Numbered from the stretch's first letter, positions 1,314-9,107 are shown. The stretch: 64,000 nt of DNA from Halobacterium jilantaiense (GCF_900110535.1 NZ_FOJA01000001.1:62001-126000); one strand, 5' to 3'. Numbers and translations: made by a program. The notes: generated from the sequence alone by a model not told the origin.

Positions 1314-1898
1314 TCAGAAGAACGCGTCGGCGCGCTCGCCGCTGGGCTCCCCCAGTCGAGCGGGCCGCTCCGCGAACCACGCGGCACCGTTCACTTCGCT
1401 GGCCTGCACGGCGACGCTGCCGCCGGTGTACTCCGCGTCGAAGTAGACGTGCAGTGTGTGACTCACCCGGCCGTCGGCGTCGTCCTCGCTGCGCCACCGG
1501 CAGCGGTTGAGGTGCCAGAGGCCGGCAATCTCGCAGTCGACGCCCGCCTCCTCTCGGGTCTCTCGGACGGCCGCGTCCTCGACGGACTCCTCGCCCTCTA
1601 GGCCGCCGCCCGGGACGCCCCACGCTGACTCTCCCCGCGGCAGAACGAGCAGCGCGCGCTCACGGTCCTCGACGCCGCCGCTGTACGACTCGCTGCGCTC
1701 GGCGGCCTGCTCCGGGGCGCGCACGGTCCACGTGTACGCGCTCCCGACGTAGCCGTCGCGTGCGTTCTCGACGTACTCGGGGAACGCGCCGGCCTCCACC
1801 TCGACTGTCTCCTCGCTGACGGGGACCGGCCCGTACTCGGCCCGCAGCCGTTCGACCTGTTCGTCGACGAACCCGCGGTTGAGGTGTTCGCTGGACAC
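1314..1898 (-). CDS. Nudix hydrolase
   Basis: A 194-residue protein with a complete Nudix box (GGGLEGEES...RETREEAGV), so it probably hydrolyses a nucleoside diphosphate linked to another moiety; the substrate is unknown. About 100 residues precede the box, longer than in MutT-size proteins. I chose the GTG at 1898 (VSSEHLNRGF...) because translation from the in-frame ATG at 1988 would add about 30 low-complexity residues and would overlap the region just upstream of surE, which is transcribed divergently. Haloarchaeal Nudix proteins usually start near this sequence. The start is less certain than the family. Confidence 0.8.
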   Translation of the reverse strand: MSSEHLNRGFVDEQVERLRAEYGPVPVSEETVEVEAGAFPEYVENARDGYVGSAYTWTVRAPEQAAERSESYSGGVEDRERALLVLPRGESAWGVPGGGLEGEESVEDAAVRETREEAGVDCEIAGLWHLNRCRWRSEDDADGRVSHTLHVYFDAEYTGGSVAVQASEVNGAAWFAERPARLGEPSGERADAFF

Positions 1899-1991
1899 GG
1901 CTGGACACACCGTGTTGGCGTCCGTGCAAGTAGCTTCCGCCGACCGCGCACTCCCGAAACGCTCTTTCGCCGTCCGACCGACGACCACACG

Positions 1992-2765: not shown

Positions 2766-2770
2766 CGCGA

Positions 2771-3268
2771 CTACTCCACCCGGCAGTCCCGCAGCATCGC
2801 CTCGGCGTCTAGCACTCCAGCGACGCTCGGGGGCGAGCCGTCGAACCAGCCCACGCGCTCGATTTCGTCCGCGCGCTCCCCGAGATCGTCCCCGAACTCG
2901 GTGGCGTCGGTGCGCGCCGCGAACGCCACGAACCACCCCCGGATCGACTCGTCGCCCGACCGGAACACCTGTTCTTCGACGCGCCGCGGGCCGAGTACGG
3001 TACAGTCCAGCCCGGTCTCCTCGCGGACCTCGCGGCGCGCCGCGGCCGCGAACGTCTCGCCGTCCTCGACGCCGCCGCCCGGCAGCACCCAGCCGTCGCT
3101 CCAGTGCGTCTCGACGAACGCCACCTCGCCGTCGGGGTTCCAGACGACCGCGCCGGCCGCCGTCCAGCCGTCCGCGTCCGGCGACAGGTCTTCCGGTGGC
3201 ACCTCGAACTCGCGCACCACGTGGGTCGCGTCAGAGCGCGCGACGAGGCCGGCGAGCGCGTCGTTCAT
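2771..3268 (-). CDS. Nudix hydrolase
   Basis: A 165-residue protein with a clear Nudix box (GGGVEDGETF...REVREETGL) near its middle, preceded by a beta-rich segment containing WTAAGAVVW typical of ADP-ribose or NDP-X type members. Substrate cannot be decided. It is convergent with surE, only five bases separating the stops, and is a different subfamily from the Nudix protein at 1314-1898 (shorter N-terminal part, little identity outside the box). Confidence 0.88.
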   Translation of the reverse strand: MNDALAGLVARSDATHVVREFEVPPEDLSPDADGWTAAGAVVWNPDGEVAFVETHWSDGWVLPGGGVEDGETFAAAARREVREETGLDCTVLGPRRVEEQVFRSGDESIRGWFVAFAARTDATEFGDDLGERADEIERVGWFDGSPPSVAGVLDAEAMLRDCRVE

Positions 3269-3402
3269 GCGCGACCCTCGATTGCCGGCCGATAAAAAGC
3301 TGACCCGACCGGCACGCCGAATCTGGCCGCCGGGCTGCGGGTCGGCGACGCTCGTCTCTGCGAGTGGACGGTCGGTGGCTGCTACCGGTACTCCTCGCGG
3401 CG

Positions 3403-4011
3403 TCAGTCGTCGTTCGTGTAGGCGTCGTGGGCGAGCCCGGCGAGCGCGCAGGCGCAGACGACGAGCACGACGACCGCGACCGGTCCGCTGACCACGGCTG
3501 GCGAGGCGAGGTGGCTCACGGTCGTGGCGAGCGCGACTGCGGACACGGAGACGGCCGACAGCGCTCGGTTGTCCCCGTCGTCGGCCGGTTCGGGCGTCCT
3601 GTCGAGGAGGGCGTCGACGTCGACGTCTGGGTCCAGTTCCAGGCGGCAGGCGCGTTTGTCGAACTCCACGAGGTCTGCGGCCGCCATCTTCGGCGCGTGA
3701 TGCTGGTAGACGGCTGCCTGGACGGACTTGCGGTCGTCGTACGTGACGGAGACCGGGTCCGCGATTCCCTCCTCCCAGGCAGCGATGGTGGACGCGAGCT
3801 CCGGGACCTCGGCTGCGTTGTTCTCGGCGTCGTCGAGCAGGTAGAGTATCTGACGGCGGCGGCGGTTCGCGAGGACGTCGAACACTCTGTCTACGTCGTC
3901 GGCGTTGTCGTCGGTCGTGGCTGACCGGTGCTGGAGTGTGCCGACACCACTCTCGTCCTGATTGTCCGGTTCTCTCCCCGATTCGTCGGGCTTAGTTTGT
4001 GAAACACTCAC
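3403..4011 (-). CDS. DUF7344-like winged-helix membrane protein
   Basis: A 202-residue protein starting with GTG. Residues ~38-120 form an ArsR-like winged helix beginning VFDVLANRRRRQILYLL, the haloarchaeal pattern annotated as DUF7344. It includes 'VYQHHAPKMAAADLVEFD' in the wing and third helix. After an acidic linker come two hydrophobic segments (~152-172 and ~176-194), so the HTH is likely tethered to the membrane. Haloarchaeal genomes carry many paralogues; the target genes are unknown. It is divergent from the secreted protease gene, with a 430-base intergenic region between, which makes a regulatory link possible but unproven. Confidence 0.75.
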   Translation of the reverse strand: MSVSQTKPDESGREPDNQDESGVGTLQHRSATTDDNADDVDRVFDVLANRRRRQILYLLDDAENNAAEVPELASTIAAWEEGIADPVSVTYDDRKSVQAAVYQHHAPKMAAADLVEFDKRACRLELDPDVDVDALLDRTPEPADDGDNRALSAVSVSAVALATTVSHLASPAVVSGPVAVVVLVVCACALAGLAHDAYTNDD

Positions 4012-4076
4012 ACGATTCTCCCCGGTAGCATCCTCTCACCCTGCCGCATTAAATCTTTATGAACTGACGATTCGGG

Positions 4077-4090
4077 GTCGAAATTTCGAC
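4077..4090. promoter_or_regulatory. Perfect palindrome, candidate operator
   Basis: GTCGAAATTTCGAC reads the same on both strands. It lies about 66 bases upstream of the DUF7344-like GTG and just before a TATA-like TTTTTATG. Position and symmetry fit a dimeric regulator site; no regulator is identified. Confidence 0.35.
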
Positions 4091-4210
4091 ACTGGGGGGC
4101 TGAAACATCTTTTTATGCAAAATGGTGGAGCGGCTAGTTATGGTGGTTGTTAACACGAAAAGTCGGGCTAACCGCAGCTTAACCGATTCATCACTCCGAC
4201 GAAATCACCC

Positions 4211-4300
4211 AGTGACCCGAATACGGACGGCGGGAAGGGGGCCGTCGCCCACTGTAACCAGTTCCTAACCCTGCCACTCCCGAACCGAATACGGGTCGCT
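4211..4300. repeat. Imperfect inverted repeat upstream of the protease
   Basis: AGTGACCCGAATACGG at 4211-4226 and CCGAATACGGGTCGCT at 4285-4300 are inverted copies matching at 13 of 16 positions, with a 58-base spacer. They lie 140-230 bases before the protease start and could be paired operator sites. Confidence 0.35.
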
Positions 4301-4441
4301 GTGCAACCCAACGACCTCGTTTCGTCCGACGCCAGTGAGAAATAACGGCATAATCGGGTGGTAGCGTCTCCATATTCCGCCGACTACTGATTCACCCTCC
4401 CGCAGTTGGTCGAGATGCGTGGTACCGCCGCGCACAGTACA

Positions 4442-7400
4442 ATGAATCGGAAGGCAGTCTTCGCCACGATATTCGCGGTGCTGCTCGCGCTCGCCCCCGC
4501 AGCGGGGATGGCGGGCGCTACGGCGGCACCAGCAGGGGGAACAGACGCAGTAGCTAATGCACTCGACGGCGACGTAGAGAACCCGAACGCGGCCGTCGAG
4601 TTCGGCGCACCAGGTGACGTCGACGCGGCCCTCCAGGACGCCGAGGGCACGGTCGAAGTCGTCCTGCGGCTGGAAGCGATCGACCGCGCCAGCATCCAGG
4701 ACGTCACCGGGCAGGCAGCGATTCAGTCACTGAAGACCCACGCCGCCGCGACCCAGCAGAACCTCCTTCGGTTCGCCGGGCAGACCGACGGCGTCGAGGT
4801 CGTCGAGCAGCTCTGGATCGCGAACGCGGTGCTCGCGGAAGTCGACACCGACGAGGTCAGCATCGAAGAGCTGACCCGGATCAAAGGTGTCGAGCGAGCG
4901 CACGCGAACTTCGAGCTCACGGTGCCCGAGCCCGCCCAGCAGCGCGCCGCCAGCGCGGACGGCGTGCAGGTGGACTCCTACAACACCACCTACGGCCTCT
5001 CGCAGATCAACGCTACCGAGGTCTGGGACGAGTACAACACGATGGGTGACGGCGTCGGCGTCGCCGTCCTCGACACCGGTGTCGACCCGGACCACCCGGA
5101 CATCGACATCGACCCGGACAACTTCGTCGAAGCCACCGAGGACGGCGTGGAGAACGTCGACCCCTACGATAGTGCTGAACACGGCACCCACACTTCGGGT
5201 ACCGTCACCGGTGGGAACGCCAGCGGCGAGTACATCGGCGTCGCGCCCGACGCGACGCTCTATCACGGCCTCGTTATTTCGGGCGGTAGCGGCTCGTTCG
5301 TGCAGGTCGCCAACGGGATGCAGTGGGCCGCCAACGAGTCCGGTGTCGACGTCGTGTCGATGAGCCTCGGCGGAGAGGGGTACTCCGAGCAGATGATCGA
5401 GCCCACGCAGAACATCGAGGCCGCCGGCAAGATTCTCGTTGCCTCGGCGGGTAACAGCGGCGCAGGGACTTCCGGCAGCCCCGGGAACGTCTACGAGGCA
5501 GTCGCAGCCGGCGCGAGCAACGAAGCCGGCGGCATCGCCGACTTCTCCAGCGGCGAGGAGATCGACACCGAGTCCGCGTGGGGCGACGCCGCGCCCAGCG
5601 ACTGGCCGGACTCCTACACCGTTCCCGACTACGCCGCGCCCGGTGTGGCCGTGAAGAGCGCCGCGCCCGGCGGCGGCTACCAGGAGCTGTCCGGAACGTC
5701 GATGGCCGCGCCGCACATGAGCGGCGCAGTCGCGCTGATGCTGTCCGCGGCGGGCGATATCGACCAGGCGACCGTCGAGGACGCGCTGACCGAGTCGGCG
5801 TGGACGCCCACCGAGGACCCCGACCCGACCCGGTACGGTGACGGCATCATCGACATCTACAACGCGACCGACCAGGTCGCACTCGAACAGGAGATCACTG
5901 GCACGGTGACTGACACCGACGGCAGCCCCATCGCGGGCGCGACCGTCTCCACCGACCAGGGCTTCGAAGCGACGACGAACGCCGAGGGCGAGTACACGGT
6001 GCTCGCGGAGACCGGGAACGTCTCGGTGACCGCCGACGCCTTCGGAGCGGAGAGCGCGACCGAGACCGTCGAAGTCGGCGACAACGAGACCGCCGTCCAG
6101 AACTTCAGCCTCGAACCCGCGCTCGGTGTCACTCTGGAGTCCGGACAGGCCAGCGCCATCGAGGGCGGTGAGAACGCCTCCGCGACTGTCAACGTCGCGA
6201 ACCTCGACTCGTACACCGCCGAACTCGCCGACGGCTACAGCGAGGCCGACGCCACGCTGTACCTCAACGGCGACGAGATTCAGTTCGGCGAGACGGTCGA
6301 ACTCGGCGGTTACAGCGGCACGGCGACCGTGACTGTCGAGACGGCCGCGAACACGACGGGGAGCCTCTCCATCGAACACAGCTTCGCGGGCCTCGGTGAC
6401 AGCGTCAACGTCACCACCGGCCCGACCGAGGTCTACGAGAACTTCGTTCAGGTCGGCGTCGTCGACGACGACGGCGGCTACGGCGGCGCGGTCGCCTCCA
6501 CCATCGAGGCGGAGACGCCCGGGAACTACTCGGTGTCCGTCATCGGCTCCGACACCGCCATCGACTCCGTCGACGAGTACGACGCGTACGTCGTCCAGCA
6601 GATCGACGAGGACAACGCCGACGCGTTCACGTCCGCAACGGCGGGCTACAGCGTCGGGACCGTCTACCTCGACCAGTGGGCGTCGGACTCCAACGGCATC
6701 GAAGCGCGGTCGTCCGCGCTCGGCGACCCGGCGGAGACCGACGACGGCTTCAGCGGCGAGCAGCCGCAGTACGTGAACGTCGCCGACCACCCCATCTTCG
6801 AGGGAACCGGTGACGAGCCGATTCTCCTCCACGAAGCCACGTTCTCGGACAAGACGTGGTTCAGCGGCACCGACGCCGAGGTCCTGGCCGACGTCTCCAA
6901 CGGCGAGGTCCAGGGCGCTGGCGTCGCAGTCAGCGAGGCGCGCTGGGACATCCTCGGCGCGTCTCTCGGCTACAGCTCGTTCGTCGGCGACGACGACTTC
7001 ACCGAGGACGCGGACACCATCCTCGGCAACATGGTCACCCTCGCCGTGGACACGCCGGATCCGGCAGGCACGGTGAGCGTCACCGACACGATGGTCACGC
7101 CGGACAGCTCGGCGACCGTGACCCTCGAGACCGACGTGTCGAACGCCACGGGCTACGAGGCCACCATCGAATTCGACCCGGAGAAGCTCCAGGTCGAGGA
7201 CGTGTCCGGTGAGAACATGGCCGACCCCGTGATGGAGGTCGACAACGAGGACGGCGAGATATTCCTGACGCAAGCGCAGGCGTCGGGTGCCGACGCGCCC
7301 GAGATGGCCGAGATCGAGTTCGAGGTCATCGATATGCAGAACGGCGAGGAGGCCGACGTCAGCCTCGTCGGCTCCGAGTCCGCGGTCTACGACCCGAGCG

Positions 7401-7735
7401 GTGAGGCCTACACCACCAACTGGGACAACGGCCACGTCATGGTGCTCGAGGGCGACCTCGGTGACGTGAACGCGGACGGCGAGATCACTGCTGGTGACGC
7501 GGTCATCGTCCAGCGGTACATCGCCGGTCTGCCGACCGACGTGCCGGACGAACAGATCGAAGTGCTCGGCGACGTCAACCAAGACGGCCAGATCACGTCC
7601 GCCGACGTGACCTACATCCTGCAGATCGTCGCCGGCATCGAGGAGCCGCCGGAGATGAACGCGGTCGGCAGTCAGTCGCCCGTCGCCACTTCGGTCTTCG
7701 AAGCGACCGCCGGTCCGAGCGCAGTCGCGCTCTAG
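4442..7735 (+). CDS. Secreted subtilisin-like serine protease with cohesin-like and dockerin domains
   Basis: A 1097-residue exported S8 protease. The ATG at 4442 gives MNRKAVFATIFAVLLALAP, a Sec-type signal peptide; a start 12 codons upstream would spoil it. An I9-like propeptide spans ~70-163. The catalytic domain (~195-480) shows Asp211 in VLDTGVDPDHPD, His247 in HGTHTSG, Asn338 in SAGNSG and Ser420 in SGTSMAAPH, so it should be active. A carboxypeptidase-regulatory-like beta domain follows (~484-558), then a beta linker and an alpha/beta domain resembling a class-I amidotransferase fold (~671-873). The C-terminus has a cohesin-like domain (~876-1000) and a type-I-like dockerin (~1004-1072) with two calcium loops, DVNADGEITAGD and DVNQDGQITSAD. 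Its neighbour encodes a membrane-anchored cohesin-like protein, the likely partner. No C-terminal sorting signal is seen. Confidence 0.92.
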   Translation: MNRKAVFATIFAVLLALAPAAGMAGATAAPAGGTDAVANALDGDVENPNAAVEFGAPGDVDAALQDAEGTVEVVLRLEAIDRASIQDVTGQAAIQSLKTHAAATQQNLLRFAGQTDGVEVVEQLWIANAVLAEVDTDEVSIEELTRIKGVERAHANFELTVPEPAQQRAASADGVQVDSYNTTYGLSQINATEVWDEYNTMGDGVGVAVLDTGVDPDHPDIDIDPDNFVEATEDGVENVDPYDSAEHGTHTSGTVTGGNASGEYIGVAPDATLYHGLVISGGSGSFVQVANGMQWAANESGVDVVSMSLGGEGYSEQMIEPTQNIEAAGKILVASAGNSGAGTSGSPGNVYEAVAAGASNEAGGIADFSSGEEIDTESAWGDAAPSDWPDSYTVPDYAAPGVAVKSAAPGGGYQELSGTSMAAPHMSGAVALMLSAAGDIDQATVEDALTESAWTPTEDPDPTRYGDGIIDIYNATDQVALEQEITGTVTDTDGSPIAGATVSTDQGFEATTNAEGEYTVLAETGNVSVTADAFGAESATETVEVGDNETAVQNFSLEPALGVTLESGQASAIEGGENASATVNVANLDSYTAELADGYSEADATLYLNGDEIQFGETVELGGYSGTATVTVETAANTTGSLSIEHSFAGLGDSVNVTTGPTEVYENFVQVGVVDDDGGYGGAVASTIEAETPGNYSVSVIGSDTAIDSVDEYDAYVVQQIDEDNADAFTSATAGYSVGTVYLDQWASDSNGIEARSSALGDPAETDDGFSGEQPQYVNVADHPIFEGTGDEPILLHEATFSDKTWFSGTDAEVLADVSNGEVQGAGVAVSEARWDILGASLGYSSFVGDDDFTEDADTILGNMVTLAVDTPDPAGTVSVTDTMVTPDSSATVTLETDVSNATGYEATIEFDPEKLQVEDVSGENMADPVMEVDNEDGEIFLTQAQASGADAPEMAEIEFEVIDMQNGEEADVSLVGSESAVYDPSGEAYTTNWDNGHVMVLEGDLGDVNADGEITAGDAVIVQRYIAGLPTDVPDEQIEVLGDVNQDGQITSADVTYILQIVAGIEEPPEMNAVGSQSPVATSVFEATAGPSAVAL

Positions 7736-7838
7736 CCGGTCGAACCACCCGCCGACACCCCTACCCGGTCCATATTTCAGTACGTCCGCGGTCCGAGTCT
7801 GCAAAAAACTGATACCCACCACGCGACATTTCGATACG

Positions 7839-8561
7839 ATGATTGACACCACACACCGTTCGATCGCCGTCGCGGCGCTCGTCGTGGCCGTCGCCGTCAC
7901 CACGGCGGCCGCCCCAGTCGTCGCGGCGACCGCCGGAACTGACGGACGCACGCTCGACAGCCAGGACCAGCCCCGGATGCAGTTGGGGTCCGCCACCGTC
8001 GACCCCGGCGAGACGACGACAGTCGAACTCGCCACGGACGCCACCGGCGTCGCCGGCTACCAGGCGAACGTCACGTTCGACCCGGCCGTCGTCTCCGTCG
8101 AGTCGGTCGCCGGCTCCGACAGCTTCGGCGACCCGGTCGTGAACGTGAACAACGACGAGGGCTGGGTGTTCGTCACGCAGTCGCAGGTCGACGGCACGGA
8201 CGAGCCCGTCCTCGCCACCATCACGTTCGCGGCCGTCGGCGACGACGGCGCGCGTTCCTCGCTCGGATTCGTCGACGAGGAGACCGTCCTCAACGACGCC
8301 GACTCCACGACCGTCGAGGTCTCGCTGTCGCCCGGCGAGGTGACGGTCGCCGCCGGCGACGTGTCCAGCGACGCCAGCGGTAGCGACAGCAGTAACGAGG
8401 ACAGCCAGAACGACGTCGACAAGCAGAAATCCGACGCCAGTGACGGCGGCGGGGGTGGCGGCCCGCTCGGCGGCGTCGACCCGGTCGTCGTCGGCGGTGG
8501 TGCGGCCGCCCTCGGCGGCACCGCCGCGGCGGGCGTCTACCTCGGCCAGCGCCTCGGGTAG
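7839..8561 (+). CDS. Membrane-anchored cohesin-like domain protein
   Basis: A 240-residue exported protein. The N-terminus has a signal peptide ending near VVAATAG. Residues ~45-170 form one cohesin-like beta-sandwich: QLGSATVDPGETTTVEL, GYQANVTFDPAVVSV, GWVFVTQSQ and LATITFAAVG match the order of strands in the cohesin-like domain of the upstream protease. A Ser/Asp-rich linker and a Gly stretch follow, then a hydrophobic C-terminal helix (VVVGGGAAALGGTAAAGVYL) ending in a short polar tail, a likely membrane anchor. It starts 103 bases after the protease stop, on the same strand. This is the domain plan of a one-module anchoring scaffoldin. Binding to the neighbour's dockerin is inferred. 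Confidence 0.85.
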   Translation: MIDTTHRSIAVAALVVAVAVTTAAAPVVAATAGTDGRTLDSQDQPRMQLGSATVDPGETTTVELATDATGVAGYQANVTFDPAVVSVESVAGSDSFGDPVVNVNNDEGWVFVTQSQVDGTDEPVLATITFAAVGDDGARSSLGFVDEETVLNDADSTTVEVSLSPGEVTVAAGDVSSDASGSDSSNEDSQNDVDKQKSDASDGGGGGGPLGGVDPVVVGGGAAALGGTAAAGVYLGQRLG

Positions 8562-8644
8562 CCCGCCCGGCACCCGGAGCGCGGCGCGCACGCGGACCGC
8601 GACCCACCGAAATTTCTTGCCGAGGGAAACAGAACAACGACGTG

Positions 8645-9082
8645 ATGCCCCAGCCCTCCATCGAGCGCCGGTCATCGCTCAGCCACCTCCTGCTCGTCTG
8701 GGTCCTCGTCGGGTCCTCGCTCGCGGGCCTCGGCGTCGCGCTCGTCGAGGCTCTCCCCGTCACGACTCCCGTAGCTCCCGTGAACGTCGGCTTGCTGTTC
8801 GGGACTGCCCTCGTCGCCGCGCTCTGGACTGGTGGCTTCCGGCCGTCGCTCCGCGCGAGCGCCGGCTACTTCGTCGCCACGCACACCCTGCAGTTCCTGC
8901 TCGTCGTCGGCTCGGTGTTTTTCACCTCGCCCGACTCGGGGCTCTCCCCGTGGCAGGTCGTCGCGCTCCAATGCGTCTCGATAGCGATTCTGGCCGCACT
9001 CGCGTTCACGGCGCTCGGTGAGCGAGTCCGCGCTACCGTATGGACGTGGGGACGGCGACTCGCCAAGCGACCGCCGGAGTGA
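8645..9082 (+). CDS. Small multi-pass membrane protein
   Basis: A 145-residue protein with four hydrophobic segments (around 13-33, 42-62, 72-95 and 103-123) and a basic C-terminal tail. No family is recognised. Either the GTG at 8642 or the ATG at 8645 may start it; they differ by one residue. It stands alone, convergent with the chorismate mutase gene. Confidence 0.65.
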   Translation: MPQPSIERRSSLSHLLLVWVLVGSSLAGLGVALVEALPVTTPVAPVNVGLLFGTALVAALWTGGFRPSLRASAGYFVATHTLQFLLVVGSVFFTSPDSGLSPWQVVALQCVSIAILAALAFTALGERVRATVWTWGRRLAKRPPE

Positions 9083-9107
9083 GTCGATAGTGGCCGGTCC
9101 GCGGTCG

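Follow-up and report, generated by a model that had tools for sequence, protein, structure and literature searches.

Two adjacent genes at positions 4442-8561 of a 64,000-nucleotide (nt) stretch of the Halobacterium jilantaiense genome (NZ_FOJA01000001.1:62001-126000; hereafter, the window) were analyzed. The upstream gene A encoded a secreted subtilase ending in a cohesin and a dockerin, and the downstream gene B a small membrane-anchored protein with a single cohesin. Their features were as follows.

4442-7735 (+), gene A, secreted subtilase (S8) carrying a cohesin and a dockerin at its C terminus (open reading frame (ORF) and Pfam; start ATG checked)
4442-4525 (+), Sec-type signal peptide of gene A, end approximate (MNRKAVFATIFAVLLALAPAAGMAGA; N-terminal mean hydropathy 2.2)
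5045-5830 (+), subtilase catalytic domain of gene A (PF00082, Peptidase_S8, 144.6 bits; Pfam cut-off 21.8)
5894-6115 (+), CarboxypepD_reg-like domain of gene A (PF13620, 50.7 bits)
7073-7450 (+), cohesin domain of gene A, end approximate (PF00963, 27.9 bits; AlphaFold2 model; VIA Z 15.7 to the clostridial cohesin 4uyp_A)
7457-7615 (+), dockerin domain of gene A (PF00404, Dockerin_1, residues 1018-1070, 44.4 bits; Pfam cut-off 22.9; solved dockerins matched by profile; calcium loops located)
7511-7516 (+), Q17-R18 in helix 1 of the dockerin, putative cohesin-recognition signature (35/35 against 7/37, see below)
7616-7732 (+), C-terminal tail of gene A beyond the dockerin
7839-8561 (+), gene B, cohesin-bearing membrane-anchored partner (ORF; PF00963, 36.5 bits)
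7839-7928 (+), signal peptide of gene B, end approximate (sequence; N-terminal mean hydropathy 2.4)
7977-8348 (+), cohesin domain of gene B (Pfam, residues 47-170; AlphaFold2 model; VIA Z 17.9 to clostridial 4uyp_A and 16.8 to Archaeoglobus fulgidus 2xdh)
8358-8477 (+), acidic linker of gene B rich in S, D and G (sequence)
8478-8558 (+), C-terminal membrane segment of gene B without PGF sorting motif (hydropathy 1.42; position)

The product of gene A consisted of 1097 amino acids (aa), with the stop codon at 7735; the ORF opened at a TTG at 4406, and the signal peptide began at the in-frame ATG at 4442. The catalytic Asp, His and Ser motifs of S8 subtilases were intact (D at 5063-5095, H at 5180-5200 and S at 5693-5716, aligned over 30 relatives). 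An inactive protease had been considered as an automatic motif check flagged the D or H motif as absent in seven relatives, and was rejected on the alignment, where all three motifs were found in 30/30 relatives in variant contexts. Hydropathy analysis detected no membrane segment in the last 120 aa of gene A (maximum 0.91).

The cohesin of gene A exceeded the PF00963 cut-off of 24.1 in the genome-wide search and was absent from the hmmscan listing for the complete protein of 1109 aa. Sequence alone makes this the less secure of the cohesin assignments, and the predicted structure settles it. The AlphaFold2 model of the cohesin plus dockerin, built on an alignment of relatives, showed a predicted local distance difference test score (pLDDT) of 93.9 and a predicted template modelling score (pTM) of 0.78; the 50 best-ranked matches among solved structures were all cohesins, with a Z of 13.9 to 2xdh. 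Because these matches were all taken up by the cohesin, the fold of the dockerin was assigned from Pfam and from the solved dockerins that the sequence profile matched. The dockerin was a domain of approximately 60 aa with both calcium loops of the type I complete (7463-7498 and 7571-7606). Gene B followed after 104 nt in the same orientation and encoded 240 aa, and its cohesin passed the same Pfam cut-off. The model of this domain, again from an alignment of relatives, reached a pLDDT of 97.4 and a pTM of 0.90, and its 50 best-ranked solved structures were likewise all cohesins.

The initial annotation of this DNA had described a subtilase ending in a cohesin-like domain and a two-loop dockerin, followed by a gene for a signal peptide, a single cohesin-like domain and a C-terminal membrane segment. 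The former description was borne out by Pfam and fold, with the calcium loops as claimed, and the latter by Pfam and hydropathy; the beta domains stayed with the cohesins rather than another Pfam family, and the folds agreed.

In the whole genome (2.95 Mb in 2 contigs, 99.99% complete), two cohesins and one dockerin scored above cut-off, all in genes A and B. Since the sole cohesins and dockerin of the genome sit in two adjacent genes, their pairing is not chance. The organization was not that of a cellulosome: there was no multi-cohesin scaffoldin, the two cohesins being distributed one per protein, and the dockerin was carried by a protease, not by a polysaccharide-degrading enzyme. This agreed with the earlier proposal of a protease assembly rather than a polysaccharide-degrading one.

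The distribution of such pairs was surveyed in 391 haloarchaeal genomes, from which 60 loci were fetched and annotated. A cohesin was found in 153/391 genomes and a dockerin in 172/391, and the two occurred together in 93 (odds ratio 3.1, p 7e-8). The gene pair itself recurred in relatives, as 30 haloarchaeal pairs in which a gene for an S8-cohesin-dockerin protein was followed by a gene for a single-cohesin protein; order and strand were constant, with a gap of -76 to +194 nt. The loci came from several families, and the holders included Haloarchaeobius, Natronorubrum, Halobiforma, Halorubrum and a plasmid of Halomicrococcus gelatinilyticus. The plasmid was the single record given by the plasmid search, and its annotation named an 'S8 family serine peptidase' and a 'cohesin domain-containing protein'. 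Gene B was retained at nearly every subtilase locus. A C-terminal membrane segment was present in all 29 complete B proteins (the 30th was cut by a contig end), 17 of which had a PGF motif, and in 0/30 A proteins. Chance resemblance to cohesins and dockerins was rejected on profiles, folds and conservation. Small cohesin-membrane proteins were also seen at L108, L109 and L114-L120, where no dockerin was seen within the fetched neighbourhoods.

Other cargo was found in the same layout. At nine loci (L089-L092, L110, L111, L113, L121 and L122), a calcineurin-like phosphoesterase-dockerin protein was followed by a cohesin-membrane gene close behind, several of them overlapping; the phosphoesterase proteins had no cohesin of their own (Pfam on 2/9). 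At one further locus, the cohesin gene was paired with a gene for a beta-helix-cohesin-dockerin protein. These loci indicate that the arrangement of a dockerin-enzyme plus a cohesin-anchor is independent of the protease. In genus g26 (genomes G043, G207 and G361), scaffolds built of tandem cohesins (2 to 14 per protein) lay beside many dockerin-bearing subtilases (L100:5662-11925 (-), L175:566-4342 (+), L098, L101 and L077). The scaffold with 14 cohesins was 2087 aa long, that with 8 was 1258 aa, and the others had 4, 3 and 2; the PGF-CTERM score of the 14-cohesin scaffold was slightly below cut-off. A cluster of approximately 38 kb in G207 contained eight dockerin-bearing subtilases, and some subtilase-dockerin proteins next to multi-cohesin scaffolds had no cohesin of their own. 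The g26 scaffolds and subtilases are a candidate protease cellulosome. At other sites g26 also encoded beta-propeller proteins of 2000 aa with a C-terminal dockerin of the same kind as the subtilases.

The residues through which the dockerin could recognize a cohesin were compared, taking the first calcium-loop Asp as position 1. The recognition positions of clostridial dockerins are reportedly 10, 11, 17 and 18, as attributed to Pages in 1997. The clostridial recognition residues are K-R. The first pair of positions is confirmed, with the numbering shifted by one (PMC5301203). All 35 scored cohesin-adjacent dockerins, spanning three cargo types, had Q17-[Q/R]18, and gene A had Q17-R18. The same signature occurred in 7/37 dockerin-like domains from genomes without detectable cohesin, the other 30 having FA, YQ and so on; the seven apparently belong to one family of large proteins. 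The enrichment was significant by Fisher's test (p 6e-14) and held for the ten non-subtilase dockerins only (10/10, p 4e-6), although these p values overstate independence because the sequences are related. As in type I dockerins, conserved recognition-position residues stood beside the calcium ligands, with identities unlike the clostridial K-R. Three subtilases from the genus of H. jilantaiense (L102-L104) ended in a dockerin-like domain of another type (Y17-Q18), and their genomes contained no cohesin at all.

Co-divergence was then evaluated over the 30 pairs. The dockerin and B cohesin distances correlated at r 0.72, as compared with 0.55 for S8 and dockerin and 0.52 for S8 and B cohesin, and the partial correlation of dockerin and B cohesin given S8 was 0.61. 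After removal of near-duplicates (27 pairs), this partial correlation was still 0.60 under within-clade permutation (p 0.0002). The dockerin co-diverged equally strongly with the A cohesin (r 0.73, partial 0.59), so that on these data either cohesin could be its partner.

From the gene order, the division between anchor and enzyme, the co-divergence and the recognition-position signature, we infer that the cohesin of gene B probably tethers the protease at the cell surface via the dockerin, as the initial annotation had suggested; this reading is the best supported. The calcium-folded dockerin of A would bind the B cohesin chiefly by helix 1 with Q17-R18, and the exported protease would thereby be kept at the envelope and not lost to the brine. 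As a weaker extension, the A cohesin might take the dockerin of another A, so that several proteases could queue on one anchor; such protease-to-protease chaining is possible. The description of the pair as minimal was right for the H. jilantaiense genome and too narrow beyond it, where the pair belonged to a module that is widespread in haloarchaea and also comes with other cargo and with the g26 scaffolds.

The presence of both modules in gene A, together with the matching co-divergence of dockerin and A cohesin, would also fit self-assembly, in which the dockerin mainly binds the A cohesin of another copy or its own and forms chains, B starting or ending the chain or doing something else. 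We hold this explanation to be doubtful, as the phosphoesterase-dockerin proteins without their own cohesin still adjoin a cohesin gene, some subtilase-dockerin proteins beside multi-cohesin scaffolds lack a cohesin, and B is retained at nearly all subtilase loci. It is improbable that the dockerin, stabilized by calcium, merely caps the end of the protease and that the cohesins are generic surface beta-sandwiches with no affinity for the dockerin. The many haloarchaeal dockerin-like domains without cohesins, including those of the three congeneric subtilases in cohesin-free genomes, speak for an end cap, but the gene pairing is fixed, and the solitary domains mostly differ at positions 17 and 18, where the signature shared by all scored cohesin-adjacent dockerins is not a calcium ligand. 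A true partner encoded elsewhere or in another cell, such as the scaffold of a neighbouring species, with the adjacency of A and B incidental, is very improbable: a second Haloarchaeobius subtilase of the gene A type (L067) without adjacent B indicates that dockerins can act in trans, but the H. jilantaiense genome has no other cohesin and the adjacency recurs at 30 loci in several families.

Several observations weigh against tethering by gene B. A dockerin-like domain occurred without detectable cohesin in 79/391 genomes and a cohesin without dockerin in 60/391, and with so many one-sided genomes neither module implies the other. No cohesin was found in any of the 12 other genomes of the genus. 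The membrane segment of gene B was weakly hydrophobic (1.42, moderate strength) and lacked the PGF motif. The A and B cohesins are homologous, and thus their adjacency could partly reflect duplication. Both the mirror-tree and the signature tests count related sequences, from which shared ancestry is not fully removed.

Beyond the tethered protease, a broader proposal is that haloarchaea possess a general plug-and-socket enzyme display with at least two unrelated cargos (subtilase and calcineurin-like phosphoesterase), together with a true protease cellulosome in g26, where scaffolds anchored in the membrane, each with 2 to 14 cohesins, would hold several subtilases per cell surface. We consider the chances of this proposal evenly balanced.

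The principle is already known from an A. fulgidus pair and from clostridial dockerin-proteases. In A. fulgidus, the dockerin of ORF2375 and the cohesin of ORF2376 were found by experiment to bind strongly and specifically (PMC9705933). Genes A and B resemble that pair as consecutive archaeal ORFs, dockerin then cohesin, in the adjacent-gene arrangement of noncellulosomal systems, but the H. jilantaiense cargo is a subtilase, the identity is approximately 15-18%, and the proteins are halophilic and strongly acidic. The whole A. fulgidus genome presumably has one dockerin and two cohesins, the second cohesin being in ORF2375. A clostridial S8 protease with a double dockerin (Protein Data Bank 8x39/8x3a) and a Ruminococcus flavefaciens dockerin-peptidase have been proposed to be held by cohesins of cell-bound scaffoldins (PMC12484212; PMC5301203). 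These are dockerin-bearing proteases like gene A, but they are accessories of polysaccharide-degrading cellulosomes, whereas gene A encodes the sole dockerin protein of its genome and has its own anchor gene. A Halobacterium Subt-(Dockerin_1)2 protein, NP_280653.1, was described in 2008 as a haloarchaeal subtilase with dockerin repeats, with cohesin unmentioned (PMC2605481); it combines subtilase and dockerin as gene A does and is probably of the solitary type of L102-L104 (Y17-Q18, cohesin-less genome). The cohesin/dockerin proteins of anaerobic methanotrophic archaea (ANME) are non-cellulosomal and scaffoldin-like with up to 5 cohesins, the highest number per archaeal protein in the literature consulted, and their cargo is mostly substrate-binding proteins (PMC9012536), whereas the haloarchaeal cargo consists of proteases and the g26 scaffolds have up to 14 cohesins. 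In the passage of that paper citing Peer 2009, archaeal cohesins and dockerins are long deemed enigmatic and without large scaffolds.

Literature searches on cohesin-dockerin pairs in haloarchaea yielded nothing relevant. A conserved pair of protease and anchor with a simple signature offers a testable job for archaeal cohesins and dockerins, in which the plug-and-socket principle would be used beyond plant-polymer breakdown. For surface display, it offers orthogonal modules that are stable in salt. The g26 scaffolds by protease clusters would be the first archaeal protease-dedicated cellulosome-like machine found, within an incomplete coverage of the literature.

As to the origin of the pair, genes A and B lie in the segment from surE to the chorismate mutase gene (2766-9107), and in five sister genomes this segment matched neither of them. 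The closest gene A relative found was 74% identical and came from genome G152 (locus L071), whose genus label g9 is also that of Halorubrum tebenquichense. The A-B pair was probably acquired horizontally in H. jilantaiense. The site is variable: sister genomes carried other inserts here, a PIN-like gene among them, and the 3' end of the chorismate mutase gene was repeated there in short copies, which suggests an insertion hotspot.

One neighbouring gene was divergent from gene A.

3403-4011 (-), DUF7344 protein (PF24035, 79.6 bits; also the divergent neighbour at L071 and L076)

It may be a regulator and has a peripheral place in the mechanism. DUF7344 relatives adjoined gene A in 8/30 pair loci. 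Two NUDIX-like genes were located around surE, at 1314-1988 (-) and 2771-3268 (-), and a NUDIX remnant lay beside surE in the sister genome L164.

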